IMG/VR virus record: IMGVR_UViG_3300017971_000200 | Coordinates: 1-64,000 of that record | Reading direction: 5' to 3' (one strand) | Origin: a virus | Length of the DNA: 64,000 nucleotides | In this document: piece by piece, positions 19,563 to 63,902 of the stretch | Layout of the letters: every line of letters begins with the position of its first letter | Numbering within the stretch: the stretch's first letter is position 1 | Program-made: the position numbers and the translations under genes | Notes under the pieces: generated by a model | The model's input: the letters and a program-made list of their open reading frames with translations, nothing else | Database searches by the model: none | Told to the model about the DNA's origin: nothing

Positions 19563-19584
19563 GAAATGTTCTCCCTATGTGTTG

Positions 19585-19913
19585 TGGAGTCGGCGGGAAT
19601 TGAACCCGCGTCCAAAATATTTCAAAATCCAACTTCTACGATTATAGTTTGATTTTGTTATTTTACGTCACGAAAAAACCAAACAAAAGTTGTGACAACG
19701 AGTTTTGATTTACTTTGAGTTGTCGCCCTCAAAGGTTCTACCGATTATGACATCACTTTACCCAATATCGGTGTCTTGGAGTGACGGCTTAATTCGTTGT
19801 GATTAAGCAGCTAATTGTAATTCGTTGCCAGTTATTTTAGGCTTTTGGATTTCCCACTTCCCAGTGAATCGCTATTAAATCTCTCAGTTATCCTGTCGAA
19901 TCCGATCGACCCC
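19585..19913 (-). ncRNA. ssrA: tmRNA, proteolysis tag GNELQLAA
   Basis: 329 nt. The 5' end (GGGGTCGATCGGATTCGACA) and 3' end (GGACGCGGGTTCAATTCCCG, then CCGACTCC) are the hallmark tRNA-like ends of tmRNA and pair as a 7-bp acceptor stem with discriminator A. The tag frame is at 19829-19803: GGC resume codon then AAC GAA TTA CAA TTA GCT GCT TAA, giving GNELQLAA, two residues shorter than the E. coli tag but with the protease-recognised LAA end. CCA is not encoded. A TATATTTATACA motif lies just upstream. Confidence 0.93.
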
Positions 19914-35926: not shown

Positions 35927-36697
35927 TTAATCTCCTATATTTCTACTTGTTATCCATTTTTCAATTATATATCTTTTATCCTTTACAAAATATGGTATTC
36001 TTGTATCGGCGACCCAGCGTGACCTTTCCACCATTCCATCACCAACTACCACATCGTAACTTTCTTTATATACGACAAATCCCCACTTTTGTAAAGGTGT
36101 AAGATTATCCCACAAAATACCCTTTTTATAACACATATCAACCATTTCTTGTTGATTCTTTCCATTACATTCACTGTGACTATATAATGAACGAGCAAGA
36201 GCTTGAATGGAATTTCTCTTGGCATCTTGTTGTCTCCAAATGAAAACATTTTCTATTTCGCCGACAGTTGGCACATTGAAAACTCGGGCATCAAATAATG
36301 CTGATGTCCATTGATCAAAATGACCCACTCCCTTTAGATTGAAATGTGCGGTGAACGCGGAAGCCATAATGGATGTGATCTTTTGTATCTTTCCACCAAA
36401 ATACATTTGTGAATCAGGATTCGCCCATCCATTCAATAAAAATGTGACTTCATCAGATTGCCCGTAAGCCATAAGTATTTGTCCTACATCACGACATAAA
36501 TCAATAGTCGCTTGTTGAAACAATAATGACAAACGATAATCAAATGGTTTCTCGATGTTCATTCGTTTTACCCATGTGTGAAACGCCTTACCATCAAGGC
36601 GAACAAACGTAGGCATATTTTGATTTACATATCCTAACTCCGGAGAATAAAATTCCTTCTCATACATTTTCATCCGGTCGCCTAATGAATCACTCAT
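35927..36697 (-). CDS. Thg1-like 3'-5' nucleotidyltransferase (tRNA end repair)
   Basis: 256 residues from ATG 36697 (GGAGGAATT). Thg1 family motifs: TFVRLDGKAFHTWVKRM (metal-binding Asp) and AYGQSDEVTFLL (second metal-binding Asp/Glu), then KIQKITSIMASAFTAHFN. Thg1 adds G-1 to tRNA-His; Thg1-like proteins repair 5'-truncated tRNAs in the 3'-5' direction using the 3' strand as template. With ~37 tRNA-like genes in the window, many with odd acceptor pairs, a tRNA 5'-repair or editing role is plausible (inference). Confidence 0.88.
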   Translation of the reverse strand: MSDSLGDRMKMYEKEFYSPELGYVNQNMPTFVRLDGKAFHTWVKRMNIEKPFDYRLSLLFQQATIDLCRDVGQILMAYGQSDEVTFLLNGWANPDSQMYFGGKIQKITSIMASAFTAHFNLKGVGHFDQWTSALFDARVFNVPTVGEIENVFIWRQQDAKRNSIQALARSLYSHSECNGKNQQEMVDMCYKKGILWDNLTPLQKWGFVVYKESYDVVVGDGMVERSRWVADTRIPYFVKDKRYIIEKWITSRNIGD

Positions 36698-36996
36698 AAT
36701 TCCTCCGTCCATTGACAATGTTCATACGCATCGTTTGAGCCTTCTTCATACTTTAGTTGCATAACTTCATCTATTTCATCTAAAAGTTCTTTGCTCAATT
36801 TTATACCAAATTCCACACAAGATTCTAACTTAGCCATCAATACATTGTAACGATAATTTACTTCAGATAAAGTAACGTGTTGTATAAACTTTCCATCAAT
36901 CCATAACTCCGCATCATAATATGGATATGAACCATCAATCTTTTTTACGTTACGATATTCTTTATCACGATACTTTTTTCCCATCTTTCTTTCCAT
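36694..36996 (-). CDS. Hypothetical protein
   Basis: 100 residues (ATG 36996; ATG 36984 has a better-spaced GGAAAG). Basic start KKYRDKEYRNVKKIDGSY, body with AELWIDGKFIQHVTLSEVNY and a helical acidic C-terminus. Stop overlaps the Thg1 gene start. Not recognised. Confidence 0.45.
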   Translation of the reverse strand: MERKMGKKYRDKEYRNVKKIDGSYPYYDAELWIDGKFIQHVTLSEVNYRYNVLMAKLESCVEFGIKLSKELLDEIDEVMQLKYEEGSNDAYEHCQWTEEL

Positions 36997-42155: not shown

Positions 42156-43799
42156 TTAGAATTTATCCATAATAAAGTCACTCATTATAGATGGCGCGTT
42201 TGTGTCGAAACCAACAACGTCGAGTGAGCTTCTATCCTTTGGATCAGCAATAGTGAAACCATTCGATGCCATACCAACTACAACTAACTTGACATCGTGA
42301 CCCACTTTATGACGATAACGATCCATTGCTTCGCTTGGTTGGATATTTCCTGCCCAAGTTTCATTATCGGTATATACAAAAATCGCGTCAAAATCCTTGT
42401 TCATACCAGCGGCCCACAATGCTGGTAAAGCACAATCAGTTCCACCAAAATCTAACCTGCTAACGTAATTATCCACATCATTCAAACTCATTCTATCGTG
42501 TAACTTCAATTCCGTTACATTAGTTAACGCTTGACCAGAACCATACCAACCACCACCGGTAAATCCAATAATACCCCAGTTCTTTTCAGCTTTCATCGTT
42601 ACCATAGCCATTGCGGACGATGCGGAACGACAACTGATAAATGGAGCGTTTTGAATACCACTACCCATAGAACCAGATACATCCAAAGCAATCAAGATTC
42701 TCTTACCCGTAGACTCAATGTTCTTGAATGCTTTGTAAAATCCTGCGTCCAAAGCGGAAACGATTTGTGGTACAACGTTCCAAGTATTAGACCCACGAAA
42801 ACCACGTCCTGCTTCATAGGTTTTCAAAGCCATTAATAATTGAATAGGATGTACACGTGCTTTCTTTAACGCTTCATCATTAGTGATCTTGTCAACCACT
42901 AAGTTGATTTCGTCAAAGTTACCACTTTCCAAGATACCAACTTTGGATAAGTTACCTAAATTACGAATTAACGCAGTCATAGGCATTGTTGGTAACAACG
43001 CTTCGTATACTTTCTTTCCTAAGAATTGTGTAGGAATAGCTTCCCGTGGCAAGTTATATTCCTTAATCAAGTTCACAATTTCCTTTTCATTTTCGGCTTT
43101 CTTTGCTAACTCAAAACCATAAATCATTGGAATTTTCCTATACTTCTCAATGTCGCCATTGATTCCTTGAGTAATCCAATGGAATACCTTGTTCATATCT
43201 TCATTGACGGCTTGTGCATGAGACTTACGTAAAATGTCACGGTGACTCCACCCGTCACGAGATTGATACTTGACTACTTGATACGCCAACTTGTTGATGT
43301 CCTTGTCGGTGTACCACTTGGCGAATGCCTTACGTAATCCACGACCCCAACCACGCATCGAGTTTACGAACTCTGTGAAATGGAATAAATGAGTACCAAT
43401 ACGTGCTACTTTACTCAAGTTGTCCAAAGCGTACTTCTTAGCTTCGTCAGTTCCATAGGAAGCAACCATCGCTAATACGAATAACGCTGGATCATTATTA
43501 GGTGCACGACCCTCTAAAGAAATCTCAACTACACGATTTACAACTTCAATGCCATCTTCCTTGATTAACTTTTCAATGTTCTTAGCATTCTTCTTAGTTA
43601 ACTTTTGCGCGGATGCGTAATAAGTTGGTTGATCGCTACCCAATACTAAGAAACGATTTAACTTATCCCACTTGTCCAACTTAAATGAGACGCCACCGCC
43701 ATAATTCTTAGCCATATCTTTCTTACGACCCTTGATTTTTTGGTTTTGTGGAGTTGCTACCTTAGTAGACTTGTTTAAAGTTTTGGTATAATTTTGCAT
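42156..43799 (-). CDS. rsr: Ro60/TROVE-domain RNA-binding protein (Rsr)
   Basis: 547 residues from ATG 43799 with a perfect AGGAGGG site (the frame is open 18 codons further without one). TROVE ring of helical repeats: FVLAMVASYGTDEAKKYAL, HLFHFTEFVNSMRGWGRGL, YQSRDGWSHRDILRKSH, HPIQLLMALKTYEAGRGFRG. C-terminal vWA domain with intact MIDAS: ILIALDVSGSMGSGIQ, then FGGTDCALPALWA. Bacterial Ro proteins bind Y RNAs and feed misfolded RNA to PNPase or other nucleases. Structured non-coding DNA lies directly upstream. Confidence 0.93.
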   Translation of the reverse strand: MQNYTKTLNKSTKVATPQNQKIKGRKKDMAKNYGGGVSFKLDKWDKLNRFLVLGSDQPTYYASAQKLTKKNAKNIEKLIKEDGIEVVNRVVEISLEGRAPNNDPALFVLAMVASYGTDEAKKYALDNLSKVARIGTHLFHFTEFVNSMRGWGRGLRKAFAKWYTDKDINKLAYQVVKYQSRDGWSHRDILRKSHAQAVNEDMNKVFHWITQGINGDIEKYRKIPMIYGFELAKKAENEKEIVNLIKEYNLPREAIPTQFLGKKVYEALLPTMPMTALIRNLGNLSKVGILESGNFDEINLVVDKITNDEALKKARVHPIQLLMALKTYEAGRGFRGSNTWNVVPQIVSALDAGFYKAFKNIESTGKRILIALDVSGSMGSGIQNAPFISCRSASSAMAMVTMKAEKNWGIIGFTGGGWYGSGQALTNVTELKLHDRMSLNDVDNYVSRLDFGGTDCALPALWAAGMNKDFDAIFVYTDNETWAGNIQPSEAMDRYRHKVGHDVKLVVVGMASNGFTIADPKDRSSLDVVGFDTNAPSIMSDFIMDKF

Positions 43800-43840
43800 G
43801 ATTCGACCCTCCTGTTTAAAGGTAAATGTTATATAAACTA

Positions 43841-43868
43841 AAAAACCCGACAAGATATTTGTCGGGTT
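43841..43868 (-). terminator. Rho-independent terminator of the RNA upstream of rsr
   Basis: Minus-strand AACCCGACAAATATCTTGTCGGGTT followed by TTTT. It lies only 42 nt before the rsr start codon, so it ends an RNA made upstream and isolates rsr translation, as expected for a Y-RNA gene. Confidence 0.85.
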
Positions 43869-54338: not shown

Positions 54339-54362
54339 AATTTATTCCTTTATTTTGTGTAG

Positions 54363-54433
54363 TCCGCCCACCGGGAATCGAACCCGAATAAGTGAGTTTA
54401 GAAGTCACTGTTCTACCATTGAACTATGGGCAG
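54363..54433 (-). tRNA. Candidate amber-suppressor tRNA (anticodon CTA) or aberrant tRNA-Arg(TCT)
   Basis: Acceptor CTGCCCA/TGGGCGG, D-arm GTTC-AATGGTA-GAAC, anticodon stem GTGA/TCAC with a C-C mismatch at 31-39, T-arm TCGGG-TTCGATT-CCCGG, A73. Counting a 7-nt loop gives TTCTAAA with anticodon CTA. With the two flanking C included it is a 9-nt loop in which TCT is a possible alternative. Several genes here end in TAG. Confidence 0.7.
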
Positions 54434-58304: not shown

Positions 58305-58430
58305 TGGTATTTGTAGGATTCGAACCTAAATTCCGGTGTATCAGACCGACGTGTTACCGTGAGCGGTTATCCAATAAGATTAACCGGTCTCTTATTGGCT
58401 TCCCTTTGTGCTCTATTACACTACCATACC
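58305..58430 (-). tRNA. tRNA-Ile(GAT) with ~60-nt insertion in the D-loop
   Basis: 126 nt. Acceptor GGTAT/ATACC (positions 6 and 7 mismatched), D-stem GTGT/ACAC, anticodon arm TCGGT-CTGATAC-ACCGG, T-loop TTCGAAT, A73. Between the D-stem strands there is a structured insertion with GAGC/GCTC and a 9-bp CCAATAAGA/TCTTATTGG hairpin. Whether it is spliced, tolerated or makes a pseudogene is unknown. Confidence 0.55.
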
Positions 58431-58439
58431 ATTATACTC

Positions 58440-58538
58440 ACCCCGTCACTGCCAGGTTTTACTCAACTGCGCGGGTCGAACACTCCAAACCTACCGCGAA
58501 TCGGTTTTGGAGACGGTGGAATTGAACCACCACGGGAT
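58440..58538 (-). ncRNA. Stem-closed tRNA-like element with T-arm at its 5' side
   Basis: 99 nt between two tRNAs. Outer 7-bp stem ATCCCGT/ACGGGGT, then hairpins GGTGG-TTCAATT-CCACC (a T-arm), CTCCAAAACC/GGTTTGGAG and TTCGAC/GTTGAG. The T-arm is first instead of last, so this looks like a rearranged or permuted tRNA, or an independent structured RNA. Confidence 0.45.
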
Positions 58539-58541
58539 TAG

Positions 58542-58613
58542 TGGGAGCACCAGGAATCGAACCCGGAACTGGAGGTTAAGAGCCAACTGCGTTCCCAATT
58601 ACGCCATACTCCC
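58542..58613 (-). tRNA. tRNA-Lys(CTT)
   Basis: Acceptor GGGAGTA/TGCTCCC, D-arm GGCGTAATTGGGAACGC, anticodon arm GTTGG-CTCTTAA-CCTCC with two mismatches in the stem, T-arm CCGGG-TTCGATT-CCTGG, A73. Confidence 0.75.
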
Positions 58614-58620
58614 ATAACTA

Positions 58621-58704
58621 CTTTTCACCAAACTATATCAAAAATACCTACTTTTCACGATCAGTAACCATTTTTCACCAAATGACCTTGAAAATACCTA
58701 CTTT
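58621..58704. repeat. Two 34-nt direct repeats, 50-nt period
   Basis: Copies at 58621-58655 and 58671-58704: (C/T)TTTTCACCAA, about 10 variable nt, AAAATACCTA, CTTT. Fixed spacing of exactly 50 between tRNA-Lys and tRNA-Phe. Purpose unknown; might be processing signals. Confidence 0.7.
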
Positions 58705-58705
58705 G

Positions 58706-58784
58706 TGGGAGCAGTCGGGATCGAACCGACGACACCCCGGGCTTCAACCGAGTGCTCTACCATTCTAATCTGAGCTACACTCCC
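58706..58784 (-). tRNA. tRNA-Phe(GAA)
   Basis: Acceptor GGGAGTG/TGCTCCC, anticodon arm CTCGG-TTGAAGC-CCGGG, T-arm GTCGG-TTCGATC-CCGAC, A73; D-loop enlarged by ATTAGA. Confidence 0.88.
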
Positions 58785-58793
58785 ATATATAAA

Positions 58794-58912
58794 ATAAAAT
58801 CGATCTTCCTCACATCCCTTTACTCTTGGAAGAATTGATAGAATACGTCTATCTCTTGATAAATGATATATAGGCCAGGGTTTGGCGACCCTTACACCAT
58901 CAACGATTTTAT
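58794..58912 (-). ncRNA. Stem-closed spacer element between tRNAs
   Basis: Outer perfect 9-bp stem ATAAAATCG/CGATTTTAT; inside are hairpins TCTTCC/GGAAGA, GATAGA/TCTATC and AGGGT/ACCCT. No ORF, no T-arm motif. Cloverleaf-like layout but 119 nt long. Confidence 0.5.
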
Positions 58913-58914
58913 AG

Positions 58915-59034
58915 TTGCGCGAGTAGGATTCGAACCTACATCCTTCCTTTCCAATAAGATAACGTTTCTCCAGCGGCCCTGTTAGGACAAAAACGAAGCA
59001 ACGGTTTTAGATGTTACCATTACACCATCGCGCA
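58915..59034 (-). tRNA. tRNA-like gene with ~48-nt insertion after the anticodon arm
   Basis: 120 nt. Perfect acceptor TGCGCGA/TCGCGCA, D-arm GTGT-AATGGTA-ACAT, T-arm GTAGG-TTCGAAT-CCTAC, A73, so both ends are sound. Anticodon arm AAAAC/GTTTT has a 9-nt loop CGTTGCTTC (TGC possible, Ala). The variable region is ~50 nt with GTCCT/AGGGC and contains ATCTTATTGGA, also found in the tRNA-Ile insertion. Confidence 0.55.
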
Positions 59035-59042
59035 AATTAAAA

Positions 59043-59255
59043 CTATTTTTTTACTACCCTATATTGTGTTTTGCGGTAATTCTTCCAATTCTTTTTCTCT
59101 CGTTTTGGAAGATACCACCATCCACAACCACCATATATACTACCGGTTCTTTGTAAACAAATCATACAAGGTACGTCTCTTACGTGTTTCCATTGTAATT
59201 TTTTGTAGACACTACTATTTGTAGTATTCTTTAGCGTTTCTCTTTTTCTCGTCAT
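59043..59255 (-). CDS. 70-residue basic protein, paralogue A
   Basis: Start ATG 59255 (AAGGAG). MTRKRETLKNTTNSSVYKKL; C-x2-C (PCMICLQ) and ending WKNYRKTQYRVVKK, almost identical to the end of the next gene. Basic, probably RNA or DNA binding. Confidence 0.55.
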   Translation of the reverse strand: MTRKRETLKNTTNSSVYKKLQWKHVRDVPCMICLQRTGSIYGGCGWWYLPKREKKNWKNYRKTQYRVVKK

Positions 59256-59297
59256 TTTGATTCTCCTTATGTAATGTTTGACCACTACTAAGGAAAA

Positions 59298-59510
59298 TCA
59301 TTCTCCATATTCATCATACATTATTACCTTGTATTGTGTTTTTCTGTAATGTTTCCAATTTTTACGATAATACGTTCTTTGGTTTTCATTACGATTATAT
59401 TTACAACGTGAACATGAAATGATACATTGTAGTTCACGATAACGTTTTAACGCTAAGTTGTAAATACGACTGTTAGTTGTTGTATCAACTATTCTTTTGT
59501 ATTTCGCCAT
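59298..59510 (-). CDS. 70-residue basic protein, paralogue B
   Basis: MAKYKRIVDTTTNSRIYNLA, IISCSRCKYNRNENQ (C-x2-C), then YRKNWKHYRKTQYKVIMYDE. Shares TTNS...Y and the NWK-YRKTQY end with its neighbour, so a tandem duplication. Unknown role. Confidence 0.55.
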   Translation of the reverse strand: MAKYKRIVDTTTNSRIYNLALKRYRELQCIISCSRCKYNRNENQRTYYRKNWKHYRKTQYKVIMYDEYGE

Positions 59511-59635
59511 TTGGTTTCTCCTTGAGTTAAAATTTACTTAACTCAAACGAAACCACTCCCTACATAATGTGTAAAATATGTCATATTATCTCCCGTTTTG
59601 ACACATAATTGGTAATATATGTCACTTTATTTTTG

Positions 59636-59718
59636 TGGTAAGGGTAGGATTTGAACCTACGAACCCTTGCGAGACCGGTTTTACAGACCGGCGCCTTTAA
59701 CCACTCGGCCACCCTACC
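59636..59718 (-). tRNA. tRNA-Tyr(GTA)
   Basis: Class II: acceptor GGTAGGG/CCTTACC, D-arm GGCCGAGTGGTTAAAGGC, anticodon arm CCGGT-CTGTAAA-ACCGG, long variable arm, T-loop TTCAAAT, A73. Confidence 0.93.
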
Positions 59719-59749
59719 AAATCTTATTCTAAACCAATACTATATCTCA

Positions 59750-59902
59750 TTAGTAATCAACTTTCCCGCGACAAGCTTTACGGGATTGTTCACGTTTTTT
59801 GTTTTTGATTTTACGAACACGGTAACGTCCATCAAAGAAACCATCACGTTTCTGGATTTCTCTCAAAACACCTTTGTTCATATTTATGTTTACATTACTC
59901 AT
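59750..59902 (-). CDS. 50-residue basic protein
   Basis: Start ATG 59902 overlaps the upstream stop (TAATG). MSNVNINMNKGVLREIQKRD then a very basic end (RVRKIKNKKREQSRKACRGK). Ribosome-like basic charge. Unknown. Confidence 0.5.
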   Translation of the reverse strand: MSNVNINMNKGVLREIQKRDGFFDGRYRVRKIKNKKREQSRKACRGKVDY

Positions 59903-60147
59903 TAGACCATCACTACTTTCTTTTGTTTCAACCAAGTTAGACAATCATCTAACTCTTGTTCATCTATTTCGCCATTCAATAACTGACACTGCCAGTTCAA
60001 CATATTTGAGATAACTTCTTTCCTTACAAACTTCCCTTTTGGGAAATCATCTAAGGCTAATCCTAACAAAGGCGTAGTATCTACACCAGGATAAGTCTTT
60101 CCATTTCTCAAATCGTCAACTACTTCTTTTACGTCAGCTTTTGTCAT
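59902..60147 (-). CDS. 81-residue hypothetical protein
   Basis: MTKADVKEVVDDLRNGKTYP then FVRKEVISNMLNWQCQLLNG; helical, acidic. Driven by a TTGACA promoter at 60178-60206. Confidence 0.5.
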   Translation of the reverse strand: MTKADVKEVVDDLRNGKTYPGVDTTPLLGLALDDFPKGKFVRKEVISNMLNWQCQLLNGEIDEQELDDCLTWLKQKKVVMV

Positions 60148-60177
60148 TTCTCAAATCCTCTCTAAATGTTATACCTA

Positions 60178-60206
60178 AATATACAACATTTTTTTGGATT
60201 TGTCAA
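60178..60206 (-). promoter_or_regulatory. Sigma-70-type promoter, AACAGTTGACA class
   Basis: Minus strand AAAACAGTTGACA, 17 nt, TATATT; lies between tRNA-Val and the gene at 60147. Confidence 0.8.
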
Positions 60207-60226
60207 CTGTTTTCTGGTTTTTTTTG

Positions 60227-60300
60227 TACCGCGAGTTGGATTTGAACCAACGACTTCCTGCTTGTAAGGCAGACACTCTAAACCCCTGAGTTACCGCGGC
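60227..60300 (-). tRNA. tRNA-Val(TAC)
   Basis: Acceptor GCCGCGG/TCGCGGT (G1-U72), anticodon arm TCTGC-CTTACAA-GCAGG, T-arm GTTGG-TTCAAAT-CCAAC, A73. Confidence 0.92.
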
Positions 60301-60309
60301 ATATAATGT

Positions 60310-60460
60310 TCCTTTGGTACGAGAGGCAAGACTTCATCCTTGCGCTTATGTATTGTAACCTATATGATCAACCTATAAGCCATACATCGTATGGAAGCGA
60401 ATCAAACATACAGCGCTGACTTTGTTTGACTTTTTCTCTACCTCTCTCGCCAGAGAAACA
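60310..60460 (-). ncRNA. Structured spacer element between tRNAs
   Basis: No ORF. Pairs seen: CGAGAG/CTCTCG (outer), GCAAG/CTTGC, CCATAC/GTATGG, TCAAAC/GTTTGA and TTCTCT/AGAGAA. Similar in style to other spacers of the array. Confidence 0.4.
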
Positions 60461-60465
60461 TTGTG

Positions 60466-60539
60466 CTCCACCGGTAGGATTCGAACCTACGACAAGTCGG
60501 TTAACAGCCGACCGCTCTACCTGACTGAGCTACAGTGGA
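60466..60539 (-). tRNA. tRNA-Asn(GTT)
   Basis: Acceptor TCCACTG/CGGTGGA, canonical D-arm, anticodon arm GTCGG-CTGTTAA-CCGAC, T-arm GTAGG-TTCGAAT-CCTAC, G73 as expected for Asn. Confidence 0.95.
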
Positions 60540-60545
60540 ATTTGG

Positions 60546-60617
60546 CTGGCCCGCCTGGACTTGAACCAGGAATGCTTGAGTCAAAGTCAAGTGTGTTGCC
60601 AATTACACCACGAGCCA
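60546..60617 (-). tRNA. tRNA-Gln(TTG)
   Basis: Acceptor TGGCTCG/CGGGCCA (U1-A72), D-arm GTGT-AATTGGCA-ACAC, anticodon arm CTTGA-CTTTGAC-TCAAG, T-loop TTCAAGT, G73. Classic Gln features. Confidence 0.92.
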
Positions 60618-60625
60618 ATTTCTTG

Positions 60626-60698
60626 TGGAGGCCCTGAGAATCGAACTCAGCTCTTCACGGGCTTCAACCGAACGCTTCACCAGGATAGCTTGACCTCC
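60626..60698 (-). tRNA. Second tRNA-Phe(GAA), divergent
   Basis: Acceptor GGAGGTC/GGCCTCC, A8 instead of U8, anticodon arm TTCGG-TTGAAGC-CCGTG with one mismatch, T-arm CTGAG-TTCGATT-CTCAG, A73. Diverged from the Phe at 58706. Confidence 0.75.
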
Positions 60699-60706
60699 AA
60701 AAAAAA

Positions 60707-60822
60707 TGGGTAAGTGTCGAATAAGATAAATCTCCCAAAGGGAGTTGTGGGGCTTGATCCCACGGCGATCCAGATTCGTAAATCCGACCGCCAACCAGGT
60801 AACCTTATCCATCGACCCACTT
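60707..60822 (-). tRNA. tRNA-Arg(ACG)-like gene with extended stems
   Basis: Inner acceptor GGATAAG/CTTATTC (C66-C72 strand separated from the T-stem by a CTCCC/GGGAG hairpin), extended anticodon arm GGCGGTC.../...GATCGCC around a loop holding TTACGAA (anticodon ACG), T-arm GTGGG-ATCAAGC-CCCAC with A54. Too long for a normal tRNA. Confidence 0.5.
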
Positions 60823-60824
60823 AG

Positions 60825-61017
60825 TTCTCAGAGTTGGAATCGAACCAACTTCCGTACAAGGTTTATTGTAGTTACTTACTATTCACACATTGTTTATTTT
60901 TCAGGCCTCAATGTGTGGGCTTCACTACAATCTCACTTGATTCTACTTAGATTCGGCTGATCGCGATCAGCAGGAACGATCTAAGTCAACGTGTCTTACC
61001 GCATAAACGATCCAAGA
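60825..61017 (-). tRNA. tRNA-like gene with ~130-nt structured insertion
   Basis: 193 nt. Ends are tRNA-like: acceptor TCTTGGA/TCTGAGA (all 7 pairs with two wobbles), D-arm GTTT-ATGCGGTA-AGAC, T-arm GTTGG-TTCGATT-CCAAC, A73. Between D-arm and T-arm are nested stems: CTTAGAT/ATCTAAG round a perfect 16-nt palindrome GCTGATCGCGATCAGC, and ATTGTAGT/ACTACAAT enclosing CACACATTG/CAATGTGTG. No anticodon can be assigned safely. Confidence 0.5.
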
Positions 61018-61018
61018 G

Positions 61019-61093
61019 CGGAACCGACGGGACTTGAACCCGCAAGCCTTCGCCTTGACAGGGCGATGTGCTAACCAATTACACCACGGCTCC
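61019..61093 (-). tRNA. tRNA-Asp(GTC)
   Basis: Acceptor GGAGCCG/CGGTTCC, D-arm GTGTAATTGGTTAGCAC, anticodon arm TCGCC-CTGTCAA-GGCGA, T-arm GCGGG-TTCAAGT-CCCGT, G73 as in Asp. Confidence 0.95.
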
Positions 61094-61132
61094 AAATAAG
61101 AACAGTTTCACATCTTGTTCAGGATGTAAAAA

Positions 61133-61552
61133 TTACTGCAACAACGTCAGGTTCAGGAATGGGAAATGTCTTTTCAACTCAACTTCGTGTTTCAATAATA
61201 CCTTAGCTTCCGGTTCCGCTTTCAATAAGACATCTAAAGAATCGTAGTAAGTAACATCGTTGACTTCCGCTTCCCAGCCGTAGCAAGAACAGTGTCCGTC
61301 ATACAATACTGCCCATCTACCATCTTTAGTTATTCCTATTTCAGTAGCGCCTTCTTCGTAATCATCCAAGTAAAACCCATCATACATTATCAACCACACT
61401 ACTTCAACACCTTTCAACGCAAATTGTAAACGATCAATGTTATCAACTCCAGATTCAATAGCATATTCCCCGTAGAATCCGTTGTCATAACTTTCCTGCA
61501 ACGCTTTTTGTTGATAGTTGTACGCTTTTCTCCAAGTTTGTAAAGTTTTCAT
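61133..61552 (-). CDS. Hypothetical protein with CSCYGWE motif
   Basis: 139 residues, GGAG start site. DGRWAVLYDGHCSCYGWEAE is a conserved pattern that I recall from small phage and bacterial proteins of unknown function. Soluble alpha/beta. Interrupts the tRNA array. Confidence 0.6.
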   Translation of the reverse strand: MKTLQTWRKAYNYQQKALQESYDNGFYGEYAIESGVDNIDRLQFALKGVEVVWLIMYDGFYLDDYEEGATEIGITKDGRWAVLYDGHCSCYGWEAEVNDVTYYDSLDVLLKAEPEAKVLLKHEVELKRHFPFLNLTLLQ

Positions 61553-61667
61553 GGCAATTCTCCTTATGTTAGTTTATGGTTTCTAAGTAGTTAAGAATTG
61601 CTTAACTTTACCATACCTATCATTTGGATTGTCGCCTAAAAAATTTACTTCTCAAAGATCAAACTTG

Positions 61668-61740
61668 TGCCCCCACTTGGATTCGAACCAAGAACTCACC
61701 GCTTAAAAGGCGGGTGCGTTACCATTGACGCCATGGAGGC
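61668..61740 (-). tRNA. tRNA-Lys(TTT)
   Basis: Acceptor GCCTCCA/TGGGGGC, D-arm GCGTCAATGGTAACGC, anticodon arm CCCGC-CTTTTAA-GCGGT, T-arm CTTGG-TTCGAAT-CCAAG, A73. Confidence 0.92.
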
Positions 61741-61742
61741 AA

Positions 61743-61982
61743 TTACATACTATTTTTTATCGCACTTACTATTTGGTAAAAATTCATTATCGTCCAATTC
61801 TTGTATACCATCACTTCACCATCAGAATAATGAACTACCATTTTTATTTTTCCATAAAATTTACATATTTTGTCGCCGTTCTCGTTGATAAATGTGACCT
61901 TGTTATTCTCTACAATAAAATCACACTCAACTTCAATGGCGACCCACTTGTAAAAATCGTAAAAAACTCTATCATTGTCCAT
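61743..61982 (-). CDS. 79-residue hypothetical protein
   Basis: MDNDRVFYDFYKWVAIEVEC, beta-rich (KVTFINENGDKICKFYGKIK). Strong TTGACA promoter upstream. Stop 2 nt from tRNA-Lys. Unknown. Confidence 0.5.
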   Translation of the reverse strand: MDNDRVFYDFYKWVAIEVECDFIVENNKVTFINENGDKICKFYGKIKMVVHYSDGEVMVYKNWTIMNFYQIVSAIKNSM

Positions 61983-62007
61983 CGTTTATTCCTTTAACGT
62001 ATATATA

Positions 62008-62036
62008 AATATACGAAAAAAATGTAAACTTGTCAA
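62008..62036 (-). promoter_or_regulatory. Sigma-70-type promoter, AACAGTTGACA class
   Basis: Minus strand AAACAGTTGACA, 17 nt, TATATTTATATATA, 26 nt before 61982. Confidence 0.8.
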
Positions 62037-62056
62037 CTGTTTTTTCAGATTTTTTG

Positions 62057-62128
62057 TAGGCCTGCAAGGTAACGATCCTTGTTCTCCCGCTTAAAAGGCG
62101 GGTGCTTCACCATTAAAGCTTCAGACCC
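62057..62128 (-). tRNA. Second tRNA-Lys(TTT), aberrant T-loop
   Basis: Acceptor GGGTCTG/CAGGCCT (G1-U72), A8, anticodon arm CCCGC-CTTTTAA-GCGGG, T-loop ATCGTTA instead of TTCGAAT, A73. The T-loop loses U54, so tertiary contacts are abnormal. Confidence 0.72.
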
Positions 62129-62136
62129 ATAATTTG

Positions 62137-62209
62137 TGGAGCTACTCGGATTCGAACCGAGAACTCAGGCTTGCAAGGCGAGCGTAGTTCCCATTACTAC
62201 CATAGCCCC
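62137..62209 (-). tRNA. tRNA-Ala(TGC)
   Basis: Acceptor GGGGCTA/TAGCTCC with G3-U70, the alanine identity pair; D-arm GTAGTAATGGGAACTAC; anticodon loop CTTGCAA; two stem mismatches; T-arm CTCGG-TTCGAAT-CCGAG; A73. Confidence 0.88.
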
Positions 62210-62219
62210 ATATCATTTG

Positions 62220-62292
62220 TGGAGACGATCGGAATCGAACCGACCACAGTCTGCTTGCAAGGCAGTCTCGCCCCCTTGGCACATGCGCCCCC
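62220..62292 (-). tRNA. Second tRNA-Ala(TGC)
   Basis: Acceptor GGGGGCG/CGTCTCC also has G3-U70. Anticodon arm CTGC-CTTGCAA-GCAG, T-arm GTCGG-TTCGATT-CCGAT, A73; D-arm irregular (GCCAAGGGGGC). Two Ala genes with the same anticodon but different bodies. Confidence 0.8.
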
Positions 62293-62344
62293 ATAAAAGA
62301 CAATCGTTTTAGGTTATCTCAACTCAAACAACCTTTTTTACTTG

Positions 62345-62415
62345 TCCGCACAGAGAGAATCGAACTCCCATTTACTGGATATAAGCCAGGTGCTCTACCG
62401 TTGAACTATGCGCGG
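62345..62415 (-). tRNA. tRNA-Ile(TAT)
   Basis: Acceptor CCGCGCA/TGTGCGG, D-arm GTTC-AACGGTA-GAGC, anticodon arm CCTGG-CTTATAT-CCAGT, T-arm GGGAG-TTCGATT-CTCTC, A73. Anticodon TAT reads AUA, useful for an AT-rich genome. Confidence 0.85.
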
Positions 62416-62418
62416 ATA

Positions 62419-62497
62419 AATGAACAAGTATTGTATTGGAAAGCGGGCATTAGCCCAACTCCATCATGAAAGGATAACCCAATACTTTCGGCTCATT
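62419..62497 (-). ncRNA. GAGCCGAA-family spacer element 1
   Basis: Minus strand AATGAGCCGAA at the 5' side; closing stem AATGA/TCATT, second stem AGTATTG/CAATACT, apical hairpin GGGC-TAAT-GCCC. Between tRNA-Ile and tRNA-Trp. Confidence 0.55.
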
Positions 62498-62499
62498 AG

Positions 62500-62570
62500 C
62501 AAGGGCGACAGGAATCGAACCCGCCACACCAGGATTTGGAGTCCCGGTCGTCACCTTGACATACGCCCCT
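62500..62570 (-). tRNA. tRNA-Trp(CCA)
   Basis: Acceptor AGGGGCG/CGCCCTT, short D-arm, anticodon arm CGGGA-CTCCAAA-TCCTG, T-arm GCGGG-TTCGATT-CCTGT, G73; the AGGGGCG start is that of bacterial tRNA-Trp. Confidence 0.92.
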
Positions 62571-62578
62571 ATAATTTG

Positions 62579-62661
62579 TACCGACACTCGGATTCGAACC
62601 GAGACGGGATTTCTCCCACTCGCTTTTGAAACGAGCGTGTCTACCATTCCACCATATCGGC
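62579..62661 (-). tRNA. tRNA-Leu(CAA)
   Basis: Class II. Acceptor GCCGATA/TGTCGGT (G1-U72), anticodon arm CTCGT-TTCAAAA-GCGAG, variable arm TGGGAGAAATCCCGT, T-arm CTCGG-TTCGAAT-CCGAG, A73. Confidence 0.92.
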
Positions 62662-62666
62662 ATAAT

Positions 62667-62766
62667 GTCAAGGATTTTCACTACACAAAAGTTGACATAT
62701 CTATGTAGTAAAGGCGTTTTACGTTTGTCGGTCTAAGTCAACCTCGACCTTTCCCACGACCTTGAC
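62667..62766 (-). ncRNA. Stem-closed spacer element, GTCAAGG type
   Basis: Outer perfect 7-bp stem GTCAAGG/CCTTGAC, internal hairpin ACTACA/TGTAGT. The second stem of the spacer at 62946 (GTTAAGG/CCTTGAC) is nearly the same. No ORF. Confidence 0.5.
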
Positions 62767-62775
62767 GTACCTTAG

Positions 62776-62858
62776 TAGCACTGGAGAGATTCGAACTCTC
62801 ATGTATGTTTCAACCGCCGGGTTTAAGCCGACTGCGTATGCCATTCCGCCACAGTGCC
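62776..62858 (-). tRNA. tRNA-Leu(TAA)
   Basis: Class II. Acceptor GGCACTG/CAGTGCT (G1-U72), anticodon arm GTCGG-CTTAAAC-CCGGC, T-arm GAGAG-TTCGAAT-CTCTC, A73. Confidence 0.93.
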
Positions 62859-62868
62859 ATATATTTTG

Positions 62869-62941
62869 TAGCACCACCCGGATTCGAACCGAGATCTGTG
62901 GGGCGAAAACCCACTATCCTAAACCATTAGACGATGATGCC
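62869..62941 (-). tRNA. tRNA-Glu(TTC)
   Basis: Acceptor GGCATCA/TGGTGCT (G1-U72), D-arm GTCTAATGGTTTAGGA, anticodon arm GTGGG-TTTTCGC-CCCAC, T-loop TTCGAAT, A73. Confidence 0.92.
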
Positions 62942-62945
62942 ATAT

Positions 62946-63031
62946 AATGAGCAAATAGTTGTCAAGGAATAACCCCGAAGGGCTATTGGATTCGAACCAA
63001 TTTAACCGATAACCTTAACATTCGGCTCATT
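62946..63031 (-). ncRNA. GAGCCGAA-family spacer element 2
   Basis: Closing stem AATGAG/CTCATT, second stem GTTAAGG/CCTTGAC, a T-arm-like hairpin ATTGG-TTCGAAT-CCAAT, and AATAGCCC-TTCG-GGGTTATT with a stable UUCG loop. Looks like a tRNA relic or a tRNA-derived RNA. Confidence 0.55.
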
Positions 63032-63033
63032 TG

Positions 63034-63108
63034 TCGGGATAGACGGATTCGAACCGCCGATCCCATGCTCCCAAAGCATGTGCGTTAGCCAGACTACGCT
63101 ATATCCCG
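63034..63108 (-). tRNA. tRNA-Pro(TGG)
   Basis: Acceptor CGGGATA/TATCCCG with C1-G72 (a Pro feature), anticodon arm CATGC-TTTGGGA-GCATG, T-arm GGCGG-TTCGAAT-CCGTC, A73. Confidence 0.95.
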
Positions 63109-63115
63109 ATAAAAG

Positions 63116-63187
63116 TCTGAGCGGCTGGGCTCGAACCAGCGCGTTCCCGGTTCCAAGCCGGGGTTCTTCCAACTGAACTACGCCCAG
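63116..63187 (-). tRNA. Second tRNA-Pro(TGG)
   Basis: Acceptor CTGGGCG/CGCTCAG (C1-G72), D-arm GTTCAGTTGGAAGAAC, anticodon loop CTTGGAA, T-arm GCTGG-TTCGAGC-CCAGC, A73. Same anticodon as the neighbour, diverged body. Confidence 0.85.
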
Positions 63188-63194
63188 ATAATAA

Positions 63195-63264
63195 AACGAA
63201 CAAGAGTGACCAACGAGTTTTGTTCTTTTTGACAGGAAAGATAATCGTCAATCTTCGGCTCGTT
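63195..63264 (-). ncRNA. GAGCCGAA-family spacer element 3
   Basis: Closing stem AACGA/TCGTT (covaries with AATGA/TCATT of element 1), then AAGA/TCTT, TGAC/GTCA and hairpin TTGAC/GTCAA. Same motif order as elements 1 and 2. Confidence 0.55.
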
Positions 63265-63267
63265 TAG

Positions 63268-63340
63268 AGTACCATATCGGATTCGAACCGATACCACCGA
63301 CTTGGAAGGACGGAATGCTACCGTTAAACACCAATGGTAC
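63268..63340 (-). tRNA. tRNA-Gly(TCC)
   Basis: Acceptor GTACCAT/ATGGTAC, D-arm GTGTTTAACGGTAGCAT, anticodon arm CCGTC-CTTCCAA-GTCGG with one U-U mismatch, T-arm ATCGG-TTCGAAT-CCGAT, U73 (Gly). Confidence 0.88.
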
Positions 63341-63347
63341 ATAAAAG

Positions 63348-63419
63348 TTGCGGGAGTGAGAATTGAACTCACGTGGCTCGGCTTATGAAACCGAGTGGGC
63401 GACCAACAGCCTTCCCACA
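63348..63419 (-). tRNA. tRNA-Met(CAT) or Ile2(CAT)
   Basis: Acceptor TGTGGGA/TCCCGCA (U1-A72), short D-arm GGC/GCC, anticodon arm TCGGT-TTCATAA-GCCGA, T-arm GTGAG-TTCAATT-CTCAC, A73. No initiator G-C run. Confidence 0.85.
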
Positions 63420-63426
63420 ATAAAAG

Positions 63427-63585
63427 TGCTCCGTTAAGGATTCGAACCTCGTTTAGTTATACCATGCTACACCTTGGCCCAGGACTTTGGTATAACCTAC
63501 TCTTTCATCTTAGTGAACTGACTTGAATCAGTGTAGTAACTCAAGACTTCATTCTAAAACTATTAGACCATCTTCTAACCGGAAC
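63427..63585 (-). tRNA. tRNA-like gene with ~95-nt insertion at the anticodon loop
   Basis: 159 nt. Acceptor GTTCCGG/ACGGAGC (six of seven pairs), D-stem TTAGA/TCTAA, anticodon stem TAGTT...AACTA, T-loop TTCGAAT. Between TAGTT and AACTA lie a CTGA/TCAG hairpin and a long stem GTTATACCA/TGGTATAAC. Position matches the usual tRNA intron site. Anticodon not certain. Confidence 0.5.
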
Positions 63586-63594
63586 ATATAAGGC

Positions 63595-63734
63595 TGCCTG
63601 AGGCCGGAATCGAACCGGCTTGAAAACCCATTTCGTACTTTGTGGTTTTCTTTAGCGACCCCAGCGATTCTGTCTCAGTTAGTACGAACCAAAACATATT
63701 CTTTTCTGGGCGCCCCACTCCAGTGGGCTCGGGC
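63595..63734 (-). tRNA. tRNA-like gene with ~70-nt insertion
   Basis: 140 nt. Acceptor GCCCGAG/CTCAGGC (one C-A mismatch), T-arm GCCGG-TTCGATT-CCGGC, A73. Instead of a D-arm there is CCCACT-GG-AGTGGG, and the middle has a perfect 8-bp stem TTCGTACT/AGTACGAA. No clear anticodon. Confidence 0.42.
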
Positions 63735-63740
63735 GTTTAG

Positions 63741-63822
63741 TACCTTCGGAGAGATTCGAACTCTCATGTCCTTTGGACGCTGGTTTCTAAAACCAGTGTG
63801 TATGCCGTTCCACCACGAAGGC
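63741..63822 (-). tRNA. tRNA-Leu(TAG)
   Basis: Class II. Acceptor GCCTTCG/CGAAGGT (G1-U72), anticodon arm CTGGT-TTTAGAA-ACCAG, variable arm CGTCCAAAGGACAT, T-arm GAGAG-TTCGAAT-CTCTC, A73. Confidence 0.93.
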
Positions 63823-63828
63823 AAATAG

Positions 63829-63902
63829 TGCGGGAAGTAGGTTTTGTATCCTACAACTTCGGGCTTACTCACCCGATGTTTTTTCTCTTAAACTATTCCC
63901 AC
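63829..63902 (-). tRNA. tRNA-like gene with deviant D- and T-loops
   Basis: Acceptor GTGGGAA/TTCCCGC, D-stem GTTT/AAAC with loop AAGAGAAA (no GG), anticodon stem TCGGG/CCCGA with an even-sized loop, T-stem GTAGG/CCTAC with loop ATACAAAA (no TTC). Because the GG of the D-loop normally pairs with the TTC of the T-loop, both losses match. Mitochondria-like; no anticodon assigned. Confidence 0.5.

Follow-up and report, generated by a model that had tools for sequence, protein, structure and literature searches.

Candidate tRNA–Y RNA hybrids in the tRNA array of a phage that encodes Ro60

We analysed bases 1–64,000 (hereafter the window) of the linear IMG/VR virus record IMGVR_UViG_3300017971_000200, a genome of 161,620 bases (161.6 kilobases (kb)) with 47 tRNA matches, whose tRNA array occupies the minus strand from around 57.3 to 65.5 kb, as do all sites of this genome discussed here in terms of strand. 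Two oversized genes of the array, at 58915–59034 and, in a divergent form, at 60825–61017, probably encode a tRNA-shaped RNA in which a Ro60-binding Y-RNA stem forms an extra arm out of the anticodon stem, and which would stay unspliced and be held by Ro60. The computed basis for this reading is a covarying family of stems with the features of a Ro60 site, a Ro60 gene in the same phage, and the presence of the same stem nearby in permuted Y RNAs. At least some of the insertions in the array, for which a first-pass annotation had proposed introns of an unknown kind, expansion segments or new tRNA-like RNAs, are by sequence comparison predicted to be tRNA/Y RNA hybrids, a known Ro60-binding domain in a new position. 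The latter two options had rightly been kept alive; the proposal of introns of an unknown kind probably does not hold for 58915 or, in its divergent form, for 60825.

A close relative of the record was not found among deposited phages. Searches with two proteins, of baseplate and membrane, and with a spacer motif led to relatives, of which G018, G029 and G030 have tRNA arrays, and inserts also occur in several tRNAs of G018 and G030. The recurrence of such tRNAs among related phages makes an assembly error unlikely, and the array with oversized tRNA-like genes described earlier is real.

A Y-RNA-type stem in tRNA genes

To delimit the genes, we sought every T-arm and then searched upstream for a matching acceptor strand; separately, we asked which single deletion yields the best cloverleaf, relative to shuffled middles. 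By the acceptor, deletion and ARAGORN tests, 58915–59034 is a tRNA-Pro(UGG)-like gene of 120 nucleotides (nt) including the discriminator, with seven of seven acceptor pairs, canonical D and T arms and a 49-nt insert after nt 27, in agreement with the sound tRNA ends and insertion first described there. It scored 41.9 bits against the Rfam tRNA model across all 120 nt. The single best deletion falls right after nt 27 (score 13.1, null maximum 11.3), and two tRNAs of G030 behaved similarly (14.4 with a null maximum of 9.2, and 13.6 with a null maximum of 11.8). Deletion after nt 27 leaves a perfect five-pair anticodon stem in all three, giving tRNA-Pro(UGG) at 58915 and tRNA-Lys(UUU) and tRNA-Phe(GAA) in G030. 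The insert proper (around 58960–59008) is, as had been noted, too short for a group I intron, the catalytic core of which usually exceeds 200 nt; group I introns and known ribozymes were ruled out, with no Rfam match.

The inserts at nt 27 have letters in common. We collected their family by pattern scans of viral contigs that required a tRNA context, together with a covariance model (R1), and obtained 54 distinct aligned matches, mostly in tRNA genes. The shared structure comprises (U)AAAAC, a helix of nine pairs (P1), a U-rich strand, a second helix (P2) with a small loop, CCG, the other strand of P1 and GUUAUC. Across the 54 sequences CCG and UUUG are nearly invariant while the helices covary: 95.3% of cells are paired, 11 of 14 pairs have changed on both sides, and the covariation score is 0.634, compared to 0.221 when shuffled and at most 0.092 when slid. 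Fitting of the aligned sequences to the model somewhat favours this score; a smaller set of six sequences was also scored. Two members had hinted at an AAAA/UUUU pseudoknot, but its A and U positions change without compensation in the large alignment and it was rejected; the scattered chromosomal matches from a short intron-pattern scan of bacterial genome contigs were judged to be chance.

A second covariance model (R2), built without sequences from the window, found 58958–59009 as its sole match in the whole 161.6-kb genome (26.9 bits, E = 5.8e-4), placing an unpermuted, Ro60-binding-type Y-RNA stem inside the anticodon stem of the tRNA-Pro gene. R2 also matched three G030 inserts and, in all, 27 of 46 records. 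In the 16 interrupted genes given to ARAGORN, no full-length tRNA was called before insert removal (one partial call), whereas 15 were called tRNAs afterwards, with insert boundaries placed by hand; the isotypes were Pro, Lys, Phe, Met, Asp, Glu, Leu, Cys, Tyr, Ile and Ser. One fixed boundary rule restored 13 of the 16, the maximum of a 7 × 7 grid of shifts. ARAGORN is tolerant, as deletions of the same length elsewhere pass in 152 of 551 trials. When boundaries were varied, some tRNA call was obtained for 46 of the 57 cores in a wider set, several of these calls being doubtful.

The gene at 60825–61017 is a 192-nt tRNA-like gene with a seven-pair acceptor, two large hairpins and a homologue in G018 (L109); the long stem CACACATTG/CAATGTGTG reported for it exists. 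A relaxed scan for the unpermuted stem had a unique match in the array, at 60945–60986 within this gene. This divergent Y-RNA stem was not found by R2, and the same stem is present in the G018 homologue.

Permuted elements, Ro60 and likeness to Y RNA

The Ro60 site of Y RNA has been described as a seven-pair helix with one bulged C and a three-nucleotide bulge on the opposite strand (PMC4726728). The phage family shares with Y RNA and nematode sbRNA a helix, the unpaired C of CCG, a U-rich bulge opposite, a second helix and GGUUAUC, although those RNAs stand alone and have a loop where the phage genes have a tRNA. Sister elements matched Rfam models, with E-values of 7e-10, 6e-8 and 5e-6 for permuted elements against YrlA and 3e-4 for simple elements against nematode sbRNA. 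In YrlA (RF02553), as at 58915, the Ro60 stem is joined to a tRNA-like domain. YrlA ends in that stem, however, whereas 58915 ends at the acceptor stem with the Ro60 stem loop-closed, and the Rfam consensus of YrlA lacks the complete anticodon arm that 58915 has.

The same core also occurs opened at its other end, in the order P2', CCG, P1', GGUUAUC, middle, P1, U-rich strand, P2. A scan for this permuted order found 69 sites at a score of at least 10.5 and a single one in shuffled controls. The middle is a loop of around 15 nt, a T-arm with a closed acceptor, or a tRNA that is itself in permuted order. In L428, L325, L239 and L103 a 3' half, a short linker and a 5' half follow one another; the acceptors pair over seven base pairs, the D-arms are normal, and the permuted tRNAs retain acceptor, D, anticodon and T arms. 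The claim of permuted tRNAs rests on these perfect cases, because the statistic over all T-arm sites is weaker (at least six acceptor pairs in 28 of 44, compared to 16 of 44 when shuffled); ARAGORN calls on them came from many trial joins, and no isotype was identified. In the permuted tRNA genes of algae and archaea, too, the 3' half precedes the 5' half and the acceptors pair; the phage forms differ in being joined via the Ro60 stem rather than a splicing-endonuclease site.

Exactly three permuted elements with a score of at least 9 occur in the window's genome, all between tRNAs of the array and all overlooked in the first-pass annotation. The element at 62419–62497 has a hairpin in its middle (score 12.2, fold z −2.9), that at 62946–63032 is YrlA-like, with a T-arm and a short acceptor closed by UUCG (score 12.6, fold z −2.7), and the third lies at 63194–63265 (score 11.4, fold z −1.4). 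The element at 62946–63032 follows the YrlA order (T-arm, closed acceptor, no D-arm), and the order at 58915 is the reverse: the normal-order and YrlA-like forms are circular permutations of each other.

The phage itself encodes a Ro60 protein with TROVE and vWA domains at 42156–43853 (PF05731, 2.5e-39; PF25045, the Ro60 vWA domain, 2.7e-56), with PDB matches to human and Deinococcus Ro60/Rsr. It keeps the histidine of human position 187 (H187), which has been described as essential for contact with Y RNA (PMC4030889). BLAST with L325 returned genes named 'Ro-like RNA binding protein' beside Y-stem elements, and in G030 three chimeras are followed on their own strand, after a few hundred bases, by the Ro60 gene. 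Ro60 was present in 26 of 40 element-bearing records and in none of 25 without the element (p = 3e-8, a guide only in view of the many fragmentary records and the non-independence of related phages); records were sorted by hand. Among records of at least 100 kb the counts were 20 of 26 and 0 of 11. Left outside the count were G042, G044 and G050 (ambiguous, with Ro60), G053 (ambiguous, without), G096 (Ro60-positive) and G094 (short, Ro60-negative); the result is unchanged by them.

In the mechanism we favour, ordinary tRNA end-processing enzymes would free the RNA from the array, and it would fold, unspliced, as a tRNA with an additional arm, the Y stem of which phage Ro60 may hold, just as YrlA is held by Ro60. 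The tRNA-like part could then recruit or decoy proteins that recognize tRNA, such as an exonuclease, enzymes that modify or repair tRNA, or anticodon nucleases of the host. In bacteria, Ro60 and Y RNA are reported to tether the exonuclease PNPase and gate RNA access (PMC4726728); they have also been linked with the RtcB RNA-repair operon, with the tRNA-like part proposed to inhibit anticodon nucleases (PMC7790460). TROVE proteins are known from jumbo phages, where they likely serve as a repair platform (PMC7824862). The chimeras may possibly belong to a Ro60/RNA-ligase repair set. Among the other genes of the phage are those for an RNA ligase of the Rnl1 type, for a kinase-like protein and for a Thg1-like protein.

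Splicing, decay and other readings

Several observations weigh against a tRNA-shaped Y RNA. Many members keep a well-formed anticodon arm, a feature that a simple mimic would not need and that splicing would explain. Ro60 was not seen in 14 of the 40 element-bearing records, including the 251-kb G049, and binding of the phage RNAs by Ro60 is a prediction. The Rfam matches of the sister elements to YrlA and sbRNA all fall below gathering scores, and between 54 and 64 kb the window's own elements, that at 62946 included, have no Y RNA, sbRNA or YrlA match at E ≤ 1; a weak YrlA match at 60514 is unrelated. The window insert alone reaches just 26.9 bits with R2, and with a fold z-score of −0.45 it is not unusually stable, so that the evidence for 58915 is comparative, not energetic. 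Most of the other genes in the first-pass annotation are left unexplained by the Y stem.

In the main rival reading, the Y stem would be a small intron, excised perhaps in a Ro60-bound state, with the halves sealed by a phage RNA ligase (Rnl1 with a kinase, or RtcB) to yield working tRNAs, and with permuted genes giving circular intermediates opened by tRNA end processing. The kept anticodon arm is the best argument for this proposal, which can also draw on the restoration of tRNAs of many isotypes by insert removal, on the single boundary rule that performs best among the shifts tried, and on the four arms retained by permuted tRNAs. We nevertheless consider it unlikely. The same stem, a protein-binding site, occurs where there is nothing to join, insertion points vary, and ARAGORN also accepts many deletions elsewhere. 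Anticodons with A34, unusual in bacteria, appear in around 5 of 30 clean cases, picked by hand from the wider core set, compared to 12 of 517 normal tRNAs (p = 0.001). Rnl1 or RtcB was found in 12 of 14 large element-positive records and 4 of 10 negative ones, a link that favours splicing but is weak (p = 0.03, counted by hand) in view of how common ligases are in large phages; the count including RtcB is suggestive, and Rnl1 alone did not co-occur with the element in the first record set. A tRNA-splicing endonuclease (PF01974) was found in none of 20 records, a test that covered the enzymes encoded in those records; within that scope an archaeal- or eukaryotic-type tRNA intron was rejected. 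A self-splicing ribozyme was set aside in view of the association with Ro60. A related version of the intron reading, in which the stem and Ro60 would unite tRNA halves that lie in normal or circularly permuted order, and the phage RNA ligase would seal the tRNA on removal of the stem, seems to us slightly more doubtful still; were it true, a processed Ro60 stem would amount to a new phage tRNA-splicing system with permuted tRNA genes.

Functionless decay, in which dying tRNA genes were struck by unrelated insertions, fits the heterogeneity of the six genes originally described and the failure of any single deletion to make tRNAs of 63595, 60707 and 63427. For the Y-stem elements it is excluded by strong covariation, recurrence in many phages and the Ro60 association, and the G018 homologue of 60825 retains the stem; degenerate, unconserved pseudogenes, raised at the outset as the alternative, do not describe 58915. 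As an account of the inserts overall, we regard decay as improbable. Lak megaphages have 'enigmatic' tRNA introns, the first to be reported from phages and likewise inserts of tens of nucleotides in tRNA genes (PMC6784885); identity of the present inserts with these is more improbable still: neither R1 nor R2 has a convincing match in Lak genomes, Ro60 was not detected in them by Pfam, and the Lak inserts look different. The tRNAs of L423 (Lak-A1) and L424 (Lak-B1) have a common insert starting ACACCCAAATCCCAGGGATAAGAGAT, a different insert family.

Apart from these comparisons, insert-bearing tRNAs in L453, L467 and L469 have A-first anticodons (AUU, ACA, ACU, AUG and AGA), a pattern that a change of G34 to A would produce. 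The Rnl1-type ligase (T4 type), an HD-domain protein and an AAA_33 kinase-like protein adjoin at 71.8–74.7 kb of the genome (L096 7801–10691, minus strand). The Thg1-like protein, of the tRNA-His guanylyltransferase family, is encoded in the window at 35927–36718 (minus strand) and is possibly part of RNA repair.

Other genes of the array and implications

The six genes singled out in the first-pass annotation are a mixture rather than one class: 58915 and 58305 fit inserts, whereas 63427, 63595, 60825 and a further gene at 64877–65059 cannot be restored to tRNAs by any single deletion. This last gene, overlooked earlier and beyond the window (L096 877–1059, minus strand), is 183 nt long with seven of seven acceptor pairs. 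At 58305–58430, a tRNA-Ile(GAT)-like gene does have an insert of around 56 nt in its D-loop (best-deletion score 10.1, above all 60 shuffles), but its ends are weaker than described, with acceptor mismatches. The 158-nt gene at 63427–63585 is real, with two hairpins, six of seven acceptor pairs and the reported GTTATACCA/TGGTATAAC stem, although no deletion turns it into a good tRNA. By its fold, 60707–60822 is an Arg(ACG)-like structured RNA with a non-canonical T-loop, and 63595–63700, in the T-arm survey and deletion test, combines a good T-arm with poor remaining tRNA structure and no adequate acceptor partner, and is possibly degenerate. Fold z-scores of the inserts are −4.0 (58305), −3.9 (60825), −3.1 (63427), −3.1 (60707) and −0.8 (63595). 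None of 58305, 63427, 63595 and 60707 matches the Y-stem family; they could be degenerate or other RNAs. The sequence ATCTTATTGGA, pointed out as common to two genes, is indeed shared by 58305 and 58915, but we take this as coincidence, because it is part of a stem in one gene and of the anticodon arm in the other.

Elsewhere, tRNAs at L294 2045 (plus strand) and L331 579 (plus strand), from phages that both encode TROVE proteins, have inserts of around 65 nt near the D-arm and may be related to the 58305 type. One tRNA-like gene of G030 (L111 14886–15005, minus strand) has a perfect acceptor and encloses an additional T-arm and an additional D-arm, so that it resembles two interleaved tRNAs. 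The window also encodes, on the minus strand, a phage tmRNA with predicted tag GNELQLAA (19584–19913), a TonB-dependent receptor with plug and β-barrel, unusual for a phage (28198–30171), and a tRNA with a CUA anticodon, a possible amber suppressor (54362–54433) that is likewise present in the relative L101.

Y RNA, YrlA and phage Ro60 are known already, and earlier work has considered putative Y RNAs of phages (PMC12282133). For a Y stem inside tRNA genes in normal order, the circular permutation of YrlA, we found no description in the literature searched, which did not include key primary papers on bacterial Y RNA; the permuted phage forms in particular may therefore not be new. Y RNAs are known tRNA mimics, and the origin of this mimicry is unclear. 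A Y stem in tRNA genes of many isotypes, beside permuted forms with complete acceptor and anticodon arms, is what would be expected of an intermediate between tRNA and YrlA. If these genes are read as tRNA-shaped Y RNAs, one source of insert-bearing phage tRNA genes would be explained and tied to Ro60, perhaps to RNA repair, and the origin and function of Y RNAs would become directly testable.

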